A stretch of DNA of 64,000 bases, taken from contig NZ_OZ035006.1 in NCBI RefSeq assembly GCF_964031115.1, forward strand, positions 744,001 through 808,000, written 5' to 3'. The notes under the pieces are model-generated. The model saw nothing but the letters and a program-made list of their open reading frames with translations, did no database searches and was not told where the DNA came from. Positions 35,904-40,987 of the stretch are shown here, piece by piece. Positions within the stretch are counted from its first letter, which is position 1; each line of letters opens with the position of its first letter. Both the position numbers and the translations under genes were made by a program. Source of the stretch: Spiroplasma endosymbiont of Clivina fossor. Its GTDB lineage: Bacteria; Bacillota_I; Bacilli_A; Mycoplasmatales; Nriv7.

Positions 35904-36734
35904 ATGCCAGAATTACCAGAAGTAGAAACTGTTCGTGCCAGTTTACAACCTTTTGTTTGCAATCAAGTTATTACAGGAATTAGAATTTATTGAAGTTCAG
36001 TAATTAAACAACCCGACTTAGTATCATTTCGAAAATTGATTGTTGGACAAAAAATTCTTGATTTAAAAAGAAAAGCAAAACATTTAATTTTTGAATTAGA
36101 AGATTTTGTGTTAATTAGTCATTTACGAATGGAAGGTAAATATTATTATCAAAATCTTAATGATGATATTGAATGAAAACATGTTTTATTAGTTTTAGAA
36201 TTAAGTAATGGTTGTGAATTAAGATATCATGATACAAGAAGATTTGGTACTTTTCATTTGCAAAAAAAGGATGAATATGAACAATTAGCACCATTAATCA
36301 AAGTGGGGCCAGAACCTTTTGAATCAAGGGCTACTGTTAGTTATTTACAAAAGAAATTTAAAAATAAGAACCGAGCTATTAAAACAATGCTGTTAGATCA
36401 AAGTATTATTAGTGGTTTAGGAAATATTTATGTTGATGAGGTATTATTTGCTAGTAAAATTCATCCGGTTACTAGATGTAATAAATTACAAACTGAGCAT
36501 TTAAAAGCAATTTTAAATAATGCGAAACAAATTTTGACACAAGCGATTAACTTAAAAGGAACAACAATTGCTAGTTATACTTCTAATGTTGGTGTTAAAG
36601 GGACATATCAGCAATTATTGAAAGTGCATACAAGAGAAGCATTAGCATGTTATGTTTGTTCTTCAATAATTAAAAAAATTAAGCTTAATGGTCGCGGTAC
36701 ATATTTTTGCTGTCAATGTCAGAATAAATTATAA
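35904..36734 (+). CDS. mutM: Formamidopyrimidine-DNA glycosylase (MutM/Fpg)
   Basis: Removes oxidised purines such as 8-oxoguanine. 276 aa beginning MPELPEVETVR with the catalytic Pro2-Glu3; the conserved Lys lies in the KAKHLIFEL region. A helix-two-turn-helix segment (LDQSIISGLGNIYVDEVLF) and a C-terminal zinc finger (CYVC...CCQC) bind DNA. GGAG lies 9 bp before ATG. It shares a transcript with polA. Confidence 0.96.
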
Positions 36735-36745
36735 GTTGTGAATTA

Positions 36746-36807
36746 TGTGGATAAGTAGATTAAAGCATCTTATTTATAAGATATTTTTAGCACTAAGTTG
36801 TGGATAA
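36746..36807. promoter_or_regulatory. Two perfect DnaA boxes
   Basis: TGTGGATAA occurs at 36746-36754 and 36799-36807, the exact inverse of the consensus TTATCCACA, 53 bp apart and both on the same strand. They lie in the gap between mutM and the replication-initiation pair dnaB/dnaD-like and dnaI. DnaA may bind here to regulate these genes. Confidence 0.7.
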
Positions 36808-36896
36808 CTTGGTGGGTAATGATTTTTTTATTGTTTATTATTTACATCGCTATTATTCTGTCATAGAATAAATAAGACAATAAGGTGGAGATAAAA

Positions 36897-37901
36897 ATGT
36901 TACAACCAGAAGAAAAATTTCAAATAATTATTAATTCTTATATTTGTAGTGAAACGCAAAAGCTAGTTCAACATTTATATCAACCAATTATTGGTGTTAA
37001 TGCTGTTTCGCTATATTTTGCTTTATTAAATGAACAATTATCAATGAAAGTTTTAAATTTAGATAATTCTCATTTACGCTTGCAAAATTTATTACAATTA
37101 TCATTACTGGAAATTGAAGTTGCGAGAAATCGGTTAGAAGCAATAAATCTACTTGATGTTTATCGTAATAATACCAATATTGGTGTTACTTATTACTATG
37201 AATTATTTGCTCCGATGGCACCACAAGACTTTTTTAATCATCAACAATTTAATCAATTGCTAATTAATAATCTTTCTCTTAATGATTATGAACGAACAAA
37301 GTTTTTATTTATTCAATATCAAGAAGATCTGTCAAGTTATAAAAAAATTACAAAATGCTTTAATGAAGTATTTCCTTTATCAATAGTAAAAGCAGATGCT
37401 TCTAGTGCTGATTTTATTTTCCAAACCAATCATTTGTCAGAAACTAATAAACAATCATTAGAAATTTCTAATGAAGATATGAAAAATCCTTTACAAAAAA
37501 AAATTTATGAAATGCAAACGATATCACCATATAAATATTTAACATTATTACAAAATTTTCCTTTACAAGCGAAAGATTTACAGTTATTGGCTAAGTTATT
37601 AGTTACTTATACTTTGTCACCAGAAGTTACTAATTGTTTAATTGAATATGTGTGATATAAAAATAATAAACTTTTGGTTGTGGCTTATTTAGAAAAAATT
37701 GCGAGCACATTACAACAAAAGCAGATTACTACTGTTGAACAAGCAATGATATATTTAAGAACTGCTTATGTTCAAAGTTTTAATAAGGAAAAAGTAAAAT
37801 CTAATAAAATTGTTAAAAAATCAAAATTTGATTATGAAATTAAATGAAATACGGGTATTATTCCAAAATGGTTACAAGAAGACCCCCTTTATCAAACATA
37901 A
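36897..37901 (+). CDS. DnaB/DnaD-type replication initiation protein
   Basis: 334 aa. In Firmicutes such proteins remodel origin DNA and help load the replicative helicase together with DnaI. The DnaB_N/DnaD-like N-terminal winged helix is inferred from IGVNAVSLYFALL and LLQLSLLEIEVARNRLEAINLL. The C-terminus has the family-like EIKWNTGIIPKWLQEDPLY. ATG at 36897 is chosen because AAGGTGGAG lies 6 bp ahead; a GTG 12 bp upstream is inside that site. dnaI follows after 21 bp, the same order as in other mollicutes. Confidence 0.8.
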
Positions 37902-37922
37902 TTATGGAAGGAAGTGATTGTT

Positions 37923-38807
37923 ATGGATATCTATCATCGAATTCAAAAAACTAAGATTGTTGCTTTGCAAAAATTTATTGCTGAACATCAATTACTAAAA
38001 AAAGATTTATTACGAAATAGTGATATTTTAGAAAAATATTTAAATAATTTTGTTGAATGTTTGGATGGTTTGAATTGAAATGAATGTCAACAATTAATTC
38101 CTGGATATCGGTTAGAATTAGTTTATGAAAATCAACGCATTTATTTAGAAATGCAAGATTGTTTACATCGTCAATATTTGCGAGCTAATGATAAAATTCG
38201 TAATAATTATTTAATTTGTCATTTTCCTTTATCAATGATTAATTTATCATTAGAAACTGATTTTCATTTACCAGAAAATGATTTTATTCGCATAAAATTA
38301 AAAGAATATTTTATTAATTTCCTTAAAAAAGAGCAAACAACAGGATTATATATTTATGGTGCTCCTGGTATTGGTAAAACTTATATTTCTATTTTATTAG
38401 CTAATAGTTTAGTTCGAAGTGATTATAAAGTATGTTTTGTTTTTGTTCCCCAATTAATGAGTCAATTAAAACAAGCGATTTCGAAAGCAACTAATTCATT
38501 AGCTAGTGATATTTATAAGCTCCAAACTTGTGATGTGTTATTTTTAGATGATTTAGCTGGTGAACCCGTATCGGAGTGAACTCGTGATGAGGTTTTATTT
38601 AGTATTTTAAATTATCGGATGCAGCATAATTTATCAACATTTTTTACTTCTAATTATGATATGGGTAACTTACAAGAATATTATAGTCGTAATGCTAAAT
38701 ATAAAAATATTGATATTGTGAAATCAATTCGGTTAGTAGAAAGAATTAGATACTTGGCAAAACCAGTATTATTAGGGGGGGATGTTCTTCGTAAATATGC
38801 TCAATAA
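37923..38807 (+). CDS. dnaI: Primosomal protein DnaI (helicase loader)
   Basis: AAA+ ATPase that loads the replicative helicase. 294 aa. The N-terminal helicase-interaction region contains DCLHRQYLRAND rather than a clear zinc ribbon. Walker A GAPGIGKT is at residues 146-153 and Walker B VLFLDDLAG around 205-213. Sensor-like TFFTSNYDM and VERIRYLAKPVLLGG follow. AAGGAAG precedes the ATG. Last gene of its operon; IS1595 copy 8 begins 71 bp downstream. Confidence 0.9.
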
Positions 38808-38963: not shown

Positions 38964-39947
38964 ATGGAAAAAATAATTCAAGAACTAGTAAATACTTTAA
39001 CAGATGATCAATTTTTAGAATTTTATGAAAAAGTCAAACAACAAGCAGAATTAATAAAAAAAAAACAACAACGGTTAAATGAAATTGATCAAAAATTTAG
39101 AGCGCAAGGTATTAAATGCCCTAAATGTGAATCTTACCATTGCGTTAAAAATGGACATAATTCAGAAGGAAAACAAAAATATTTATGTAAAAATTGCCGT
39201 GCAAGTTTTGACGCTTTTCGTAATCATTTTATTTATTGAAGTCATTTAAATTATGAACAATGAAATTTATTGATTCAAATTTCATTGCTGGGGCAATCTA
39301 GTAAAATAATTTCTCGTTTTATTAAAACTACATTAAAAACTGCTTGATATAATCGTCAAAAATTAATGAAATCAAAACAATTAGAAAATACCCAATTAAA
39401 ATTTAAAAAATTATCTGGTAAAATCCAAATCGATGAAACATTTATTAAAGAAATCCATAAAGGAAATTTCAAATATAAAACTGATCCACGAAGAATTCAC
39501 CTTGACCCATTCGCAACTAATACTAAATGCTGTATTCAAATGGCAATTGATAATAATAACAATATTTATGTTAAATCCACAAACACCAAACGTTTACAAA
39601 AACAATGAGTTATTGAAAATATGAACAAAGAATTAATTAACGAAAATTCAATTATTACTTCTGATATGCAAAAATTATATTTTTTAGTAGCAAAACAAAC
39701 AAATTCTACTTTATGTGTAACTAAAACAACAACTAATCCTGAAGCTAGTTATTGTAACTTAAATAAAATCAGTAAATTACAATCTAGTCTTAAAGAAACC
39801 TTAATTCATTATCATGGTTTAGGTTTTACTAATATTCAAAATTATTTAAATCTCTGAAAATGAAAATACCAACATAAGGGTTTAACTCCAAACCAACAAA
39901 CAGCGGTATTATATTTTAATAGACTTCTTGCAAAATTAATATGATAA
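38964..39947 (+). CDS. IS1595/ISXO2-like transposase with IS5-encoded tail, 327 aa
   Basis: Full-length frame with several substitutions (for example Thr to Ile in SSKIISR). The final Val of the normal protein is replaced by RLLAKLIW, read from the end of IS5-A copy 7. All catalytic segments remain, so it may still be active. Confidence 0.8.
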
Positions 39948-40987
39948 TTATAATTTTTAAATTTAAAATAAATATAAAAGTGTTATTAAAATAATTTTTA
40001 GATTATTTTTACAAATATTTTGTCATTAAAACATAATAAAAATTATTATTTACAATAAAAAAAGACTGAAATTTTAAATTATCAAATATATTTAAACTAA
40101 TAGTTGTAAATTATAAATTGAAGCTATTAAATTAAATCTTAAAGCAAATCTTTTTCTACGATTTCGATATTTTTCACTAATAATTTTAAATTTTTTAAGT
40201 ATAGCAAAAACATTTTCAATAACAATTCTCATTTTTGAAATTCGCTCATTATTTTGCTTTTCTTCTTTATTTAAAGGGTTTTTCTTTGATTTTTTTTAGG
40301 AATTAAAACATTATGATTAATTTTTTGTATGCCTTGATAACCTAAATCCACTAAAACAGTTGTTTCTGGTAAAAATTTAATTTTTGAATCTTTTAAAATT
40401 TTAAAGTCATGGTTTTTACCATAAGAAAAATCAGAACTAATAATTTTTTTACTATCTTTTTCAATTATAACTTGTGTTTTTATTGTGTGTTTTTTCTTTT
40501 TTCCTGAGTAGTGCTGTTTTTGTCTTTTTTTGGGCGTTGGATTTGGCTTTCAGTTACATCAATTATAACAGTCTTATCTTTGAAATAATCTTTTAATAGT
40601 GATTTTTGACCAGTAAGTTGTTGAAAATTAGGGTGTTTTATTAAAGTGTCTTCAATTCATTTGATATTTCTATAACAACTACTTTCACTAATATCATAAC
40701 TTTTTGCAATATGAAAATAAGTTCTATATTCTCTTCAATATTCTAAAGTCATTAAAATACGATTTTCTAATGATAATTTATTGGTTCTTCCGCGACGAAA
40801 TCTCTTTTTTAATTCTTCTATTTTTAAAATTTCTAGCATTTTATTAAAAGTAGTATGTTTAATACCAGTTAATCTTAAAAAATTTTTATCACTTATTTGA
40901 TTATTTTTTTTAAATTTCATTTAAATTCCACCTTTTTATTAAAAACAACAATTCAATTATATTTTAAATTAATTTTGCAAGAAGTCT
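39921..40987 (-). mobile_element. IS5-A copy 7, one base shorter
   Basis: AAT on both sides (39918-39920 and 40988-40990). A single base is missing in the run near 40290. Confidence 0.9.
40091..40920 (-). pseudogene. IS5-A transposase with frameshift in C-terminal half
   Basis: The first frame is intact (start 40920). One deleted base near 40291-40296 breaks the basic KRKSKK region of the second frame, before the catalytic Glu. Confidence 0.78.

Follow-up and report, generated by a model that had tools for sequence, protein, structure and literature searches.

Conserved putative DnaA boxes precede the helicase-loading genes dnaB-dnaI in Spiroplasma and other Mycoplasmatales

The window, meaning the whole 64-kb stretch of DNA that was analysed, covers bases 744001-808000 of the genome of a Spiroplasma endosymbiont of Clivina fossor, a single contig of 2,045,693 bases read with genetic code 4 (TGA = Trp). 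Within it, a gap of 163 bp between the stop codon of mutM (36734) and the ATG of dnaB (36898) holds both copies of the 9-mer TGTGGATAA, a putative DnaA box. The features of the locus, numbered from the first base of the window, are the following:

35904..36734, + strand: mutM, the upstream neighbour, outside the module; MutM family match
36737..36745, + strand: imperfect third box TGTGAATTA (TGTGGATTA in genome G002), abutting box A
36746..36754, + strand: DnaA box A, exact TGTGGATAA (reverse complement TTATCCACA); kept in 5/5 genomes of the genus, own included
36799..36807, + strand: DnaA box B, a second exact TGTGGATAA, 53 bp start to start from the first; spacing identical in 5/5 genomes of the genus
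36841..36869, + strand: predicted sigma-A promoter of dnaB-dnaI, TTTACA (36841-36846), 17 bp, TAGAAT (36864-36869)
36882..36890, + strand: likely ribosome-binding site AAGGTGGAG, by sequence inspection
36898..37901, + strand: dnaB (B. subtilis type, helicase-loading initiation protein), with a DnaB_2 domain; alternative start GTG at 36885
37923..38807, + strand: dnaI (helicase loader ATPase), with DnaI_N and AAA ATPase domains; alternative start GTG at 37914

The product of dnaB matches PF07261 (DnaB_2; 8.9e-12) and that of dnaI matches both DnaI_N (4.8e-05) and IstB/AAA (6e-13). The coordinates and these Pfam matches confirm the original prediction in its description of the site, namely two exact copies of TGTGGATAA in a 163-bp gap before a DnaB/DnaD-type gene and dnaI. 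The -35 and -10 elements reported here are all predictions from a single fixed matrix with frequencies set by hand; TTTACA-17-TAGAAT is the best predicted promoter (10 of 12 consensus matches), and the region as a whole is no richer in promoter-like sites than its shuffles (12 versus 11.1). A scan of 36600-38000 found no terminator-like site. Box B also lies at the centre of an inverted repeat (36792-36813; ACTAAGTT-GTGGAT-AACTTAGT), which is perfect in G001-G004 and carries one change in the window. Downstream of dnaI, transposase-like ORFs occupy 38964-39947 and 40480-40920, and very similar ORFs are found beside the copies of dnaA.

The 9-mer itself is not rare. Its two copies in the 64-kb window, both on the + strand, compare with a shuffle mean of 0.67, and at least two copies were reached in 12 of 100 shuffles of the window; the claim that such a pair is improbable by chance in AT-rich DNA was therefore overstated, and window-wide rarity was dropped as proof. 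Across the whole genome there are 24 exact sites, against roughly 21 extrapolated from the shuffle rate of the window: six at three dnaA/oriC copies, the two before dnaB, 11 within ORFs of at least 90 codons, three in copies that accompany a single repeated ORF, one next to a phage-type rep gene, and one that is intergenic and unassigned (L001). What is unusual in the pair is its 53-bp closeness, its intergenic place and its conservation, not the count of the 9-mer.

Conservation was followed through Mycoplasmatales, where a search with DnaI gave matches in 210 of 248 genomes. The sample of 125 of these 210 comprised the five genomes of the genus (g1), 80 hand-picked genomes that were mostly best matches, and 40 more that widened families f3, f8, f11 and others; it is non-random, the remaining 85 having weaker matches or lying at contig edges. 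The ORF directly before dnaI was taken as dnaB in the relatives, and a Pfam check of this ORF returned DnaB_2 in seven of seven cases from other genera, while the f3 and f8 ORFs were taken without that check. Both boxes and their exact 53-bp spacing are kept in all five genomes of the genus, own included. The DnaI proteins of the other four are 95-98% identical to the window copy, so conservation in the genus alone is weak evidence. Over the full sample, the degenerate motif TGTGGAWAA occurs on the coding strand within 250 nt before dnaB in 79 of 125 genomes; these sites number 107, where dinucleotide shuffles predict 1.0. The opposite strand of the same 125 upstream regions has five sites against 0.25 expected, and a control stretch inside dnaB has none in any of the 125 genomes. 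Exact TGTGGATAA precedes dnaB in 49 of the 125. By family, the motif is present in 5/5 genomes of f1, 9/9 of f5, 45/57 of f6, 15/36 of f3 and 5/11 of f8, and was not found before dnaB in f11 (0/5), f7 (0/1) or f10 (0/1). The check that had been proposed, whether other Spiroplasma keep the boxes ahead of dnaI, accordingly gives a positive answer that extends beyond Spiroplasma, with 46 of the 125 genomes, including 12 of the 17 of g29, lacking TGTGGAWAA before dnaB.

When the 200 nt before dnaB were compared among ten representatives of different lineages, the alignable stretches measured only 13-39 bp and several of them were the boxes. Most box-bearing genomes of g13 keep only the box beside the upstream stop codon. 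A further arrangement was observed in four of seven g6 genomes (L103, L104, L108, L121) and in g31 (L083, L088), where overlapping box-like sites 8 bp apart (for example TGTGGAAATGTGGAAAAC) stand near the upstream stop codon in place of the long-spaced pair.

The boxes follow dnaB, not the gene upstream. Genus g25 keeps the pair before dnaB in 14/14 genomes and has mutM relocated; a box within 250 nt of the mutM stop was found in none of the 13 located genes (the search by mutM start motif left uncounted L234, the 14th g25 genome, and L245-L250, six genomes of other genera). Because mutM lies elsewhere without a box and the pair stays at dnaB, the boxes belong to dnaB, and their interpretation as a 3' element of mutM was rejected. 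Outside the order, 40 Bacilli were sampled from 75 genomes matching DnaI_N at class level, eight of the 75 being in-order; TGTGGAWAA was found in none of the 40 within 900 nt before the ORF preceding dnaI, which was identified as dnaB by position and not by family. A wider Bacilli feature was rejected on this result. The ORF taken as dnaB in these 40 genomes mostly sits tight behind other ORFs, presumably nrdR and coaE, judging by size. In the simplest history, the boxes would have been gained as dnaB-dnaI came to have an upstream region of its own in Mycoplasmatales.

Spacing between same-strand boxes recurs in two classes. The pair is 53 bp apart in g1 (5/5 genomes), 52-53 bp in g25 (14/14) and 54 bp in g29 (5/17 by the pair criterion) and g12 (2/5), and it is 61-63 bp apart in g5 (6/6), 63 bp in g27 (3/3) and 62 bp in g3 (1/4), with g15 showing both 51 and 62 bp (3/3). 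Within g25, the downstream box is TGTGGATAA in 14/14 genomes and box A is TGTGGAAAA in eight, TGTGTAAAA in five and TGTGCAAAA in one. Altogether, 8 of 14 pair-bearing genera fall at 51-54 or 61-63 bp, which corresponds to roughly five or six turns of the helix, and the other six have spacings between 21 and 96 bp (pairs more than 15 bp apart), such as 80 bp in g13, where one member lies within the upstream gene. In G190 the spacing is 56 bp. The spacings of the 14 genera are phased at 10.5 bp (R 0.60 versus 0.24 for uniform spacings, P 0.004). A narrower test of the spacing classes, which were picked post hoc, gave P 0.0004 (a mean of 7.3 genera out of 15 versus 1.2). According to passages of a review (PMC4285127), the distance between selected boxes of oriC can be changed by full turns but not by part turns.

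Within several genera, box B also keeps a set distance from the predicted promoter. From its end to the predicted -35 element there are 33 bp in g1 (5/5), 32 bp in g25 (14/14), 22 bp in g5 (6/6), 42-43 bp in the paired genomes of g29 (5/5), and 43 and 22 bp in the two paired genomes of g12. The exceptions are g15, which agrees in one of three genomes, g3 (71 bp) and g27 (30 bp); in seven other g29 genomes, whose boxes are inexact, the distance ranges from 11 to 94 bp. In g25, box B lies 82 to 156 bp from the dnaB start, depending on the genome, and stays 32 bp from the predicted -35, which implies that the box is placed relative to the predicted promoter and not to the gene. Among eight paired genera, the phasing of box B to the predicted promoter gave an R of 0.66 for a 10.5-bp turn, compared with 0.31 for shuffles (P 0.02), and a higher R, 0.81, for a turn of 10.0 bp; single-box genera showed no phasing to the promoter (P 0.23). 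A single helical phase across lineages would be expected of a class I type activator position, on the promoter's side of the helix; the phasing seen here is only suggestive.

A search of 248 whole genomes with the exact pair pattern TGTGGAWAA-N42-54-TGTGGAWAA returned 43 matches, all in 28 genomes, leaving 220 without one. Shuffles preserving strand composition, together with the reversed-pattern control, led to the rejection of a general leading-strand motif. Placements were assigned by hand; in G003 they rely on resemblance of sequence, and at contig ends they assume a circular contig. On this basis, 36 of the 43 matches lie at dnaB or dnaA/oriC: 23 before dnaB (in 23 genomes) and 13 at dnaA/oriC, including one in the dnaA-dnaN gap of G114 and one at the second dnaA copy of G004. 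The remaining matches comprise five at a copy resembling the dnaA promoter, one near pth and one left unassigned. The window's own genome encodes a DnaA with a Bac_DnaA_C domain (6.6e-24), its dnaA/oriC region carries the same 9-mer, and its dnaA promoter region has TGTGGAAAA and TGTGGATAA 55 bp apart, followed by TTATCCACA.

Two side observations concern dnaA-like regions. Three dnaA/oriC copies with repeated transposase-like ORFs between them lie at G000:C1 2038402-2045693 and 1-506 (L064, L065); two of the G000 copies of dnaA are full-length ORFs of 452 and 451 codons, and the third, at the contig start, is cut off after some 165 codons. A second copy of the dnaA region also occurs in G004 (L428). 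These extra copies may be a real duplication or a matter of assembly. In addition, a stretch resembling the dnaA promoter and holding the exact pair lies between clpB and a rolling-circle rep gene (L391, G000:C1 around 294213), with counterparts L151 and L157 in G002; it matches the dnaA/oriC region of G002 at 88% identity across 78 bp. The rep gene of this element has a REP_ORF2-G2P match and shares 45% identity with Rep from Spiroplasma phage SVTS2, and the locus may be a phage-like element that has picked up host DnaA boxes.

These observations point to the putative DnaA sites as probable control elements that place the dnaB-dnaI promoter under DnaA. Activation is the most likely sign of such control, because both boxes lie outside the predicted core promoter. 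DnaA would bind at about 73 bp (the centre of box B) and about 126 bp (box A) before the transcription start predicted near 36876. The two bound molecules would face the same side of the helix, five turns apart, and could contact each other, which at distances of 51-54 or 61-63 bp would need the intervening DNA to bend or loop. Bound DnaA would then help RNA polymerase at the downstream predicted promoter, and the supply of the helicase loader from dnaB-dnaI would track DnaA activity. The interpretation first suggested is partly supported: coupling of loader expression to DnaA is the best reading, and the reservoir role offered beside it finds no support in a site of two strong boxes that are tied to dnaB and recur at similar spacing.

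Control by DnaA of the opposite sign, with the same sites serving to repress dnaB-dnaI, for example through a filament growing from the boxes towards the promoter at high DnaA-ATP, shares DnaA control with the favoured explanation and appears rather unlikely. It draws on the similar pair at the organism's own dnaA promoter, on passages of PMC11317965 that describe E. coli dnaA as a negatively regulated DnaA target, and on several operons apparently repressed by B. subtilis DnaA in passages of PMC4447404; however, the boxes stand clear of the predicted core promoter, box B ending 22-43 bp before the -35 element in g1, g5, g25, g12 and the paired g29 genomes. Alternatively, DnaA bound at the boxes could act as a roadblock to transcription arriving from upstream, insulating dnaB-dnaI and leaving its promoter unregulated. 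The location of the boxes after the stop codon of the upstream gene and ahead of the predicted dnaB promoter, the bias towards one orientation (107 versus 5 sites) and the lack of a terminator-like site in the scan of 36600-38000 would all suit this role, and passages of PMC11317965 describe E. coli DnaA within a transcribed region as a roadblock to RNA polymerase. Nevertheless, a roadblock has no need of the recurring spacing of 51-54 or 61-63 bp, several g13 genomes already have a terminator-like inverted repeat after the box, and a similar pair is present at the dnaA promoter; insulation in place of promoter control is improbable.

A non-regulatory role as a DnaA reservoir, or as a DnaA-reactivating locus of the datA or DARS kind, is highly improbable. 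In its favour, the site is a conserved group of two or three boxes away from oriC, but two strong boxes would titrate little, and in g25 the pair remains at dnaB though the upstream gene is not mutM; a large box cluster free of any neighbouring gene, which would characterize a reservoir, contrasts with the two strong boxes tied to dnaB that were found. Chance matching in an AT-rich, strand-skewed genome accounts readily for the numbers within one genome, where the window count is reached by shuffles and the genome total of 24 is near expectation, but it is exceedingly improbable as an explanation of a site that recurs at one place in 79 of 125 genomes, when shuffles keeping strand composition predict about one site in all, and of a pair pattern with 43 matches against three for its reversed control.

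Control of replication genes by DnaA is of an already known kind. The passages of PMC9879097 describe DnaA of Borrelia burgdorferi binding upstream of essential replication genes and acting in vitro as an activator of dnaX-ebfC. The likeness lies in DnaA sites, putative here, upstream of replication genes; the Borrelia case differs in that other genes and another phylum are concerned, and those passages present no phased pair conserved between families. The Caulobacter regulon, as given in passages of PMC8203912, includes predicted boxes upstream of the replicative helicase gene dnaB, which encodes the helicase itself, whereas dnaB and dnaI here encode loader proteins of the Firmicute type. 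In B. subtilis, a low-GC Gram-positive relative, passages of PMC4447404 report DnaA acting from box-containing upstream regions of sda, ywlC, yyzF-yydD and others, which resembles the present arrangement; its strongest sites, however, are box arrays, and dnaB-dnaI is not named as a target in those passages. Finally, E. coli DnaA is described in passages of PMC11317965 as preferring pairs of fixed spacing, its double boxes being 2-3 bp apart, in contrast to the start-to-start distances of 51-54 or 61-63 bp in Mycoplasmatales. The passages of the open-licence literature matches listed describe neither DnaA boxes before dnaB-dnaI in mollicutes nor a DnaA regulon of Spiroplasma and its relatives.

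With a similar 55-bp pair at the organism's own dnaA promoter, the initiator and the loader would share one DnaA-responsive layout. We tentatively propose that Mycoplasmatales may possess a minimal DnaA module of two same-strand boxes, separated by five or six turns of the helix, set in helical register with the promoter and common to dnaA and dnaB-dnaI, which would have arisen after dnaB-dnaI left a dense Bacilli operon and would join initiator and loader in one self-timed circuit. The phased pair could help to map DnaA regulons across Spiroplasma and related bacteria. If DnaA control of dnaB-dnaI is real, DnaA would set the timing both of origin opening and of helicase-loader supply in organisms that have few transcription regulators, and, if the proposed module is correct, a self-timed circuit would operate in some of the smallest cellular genomes.
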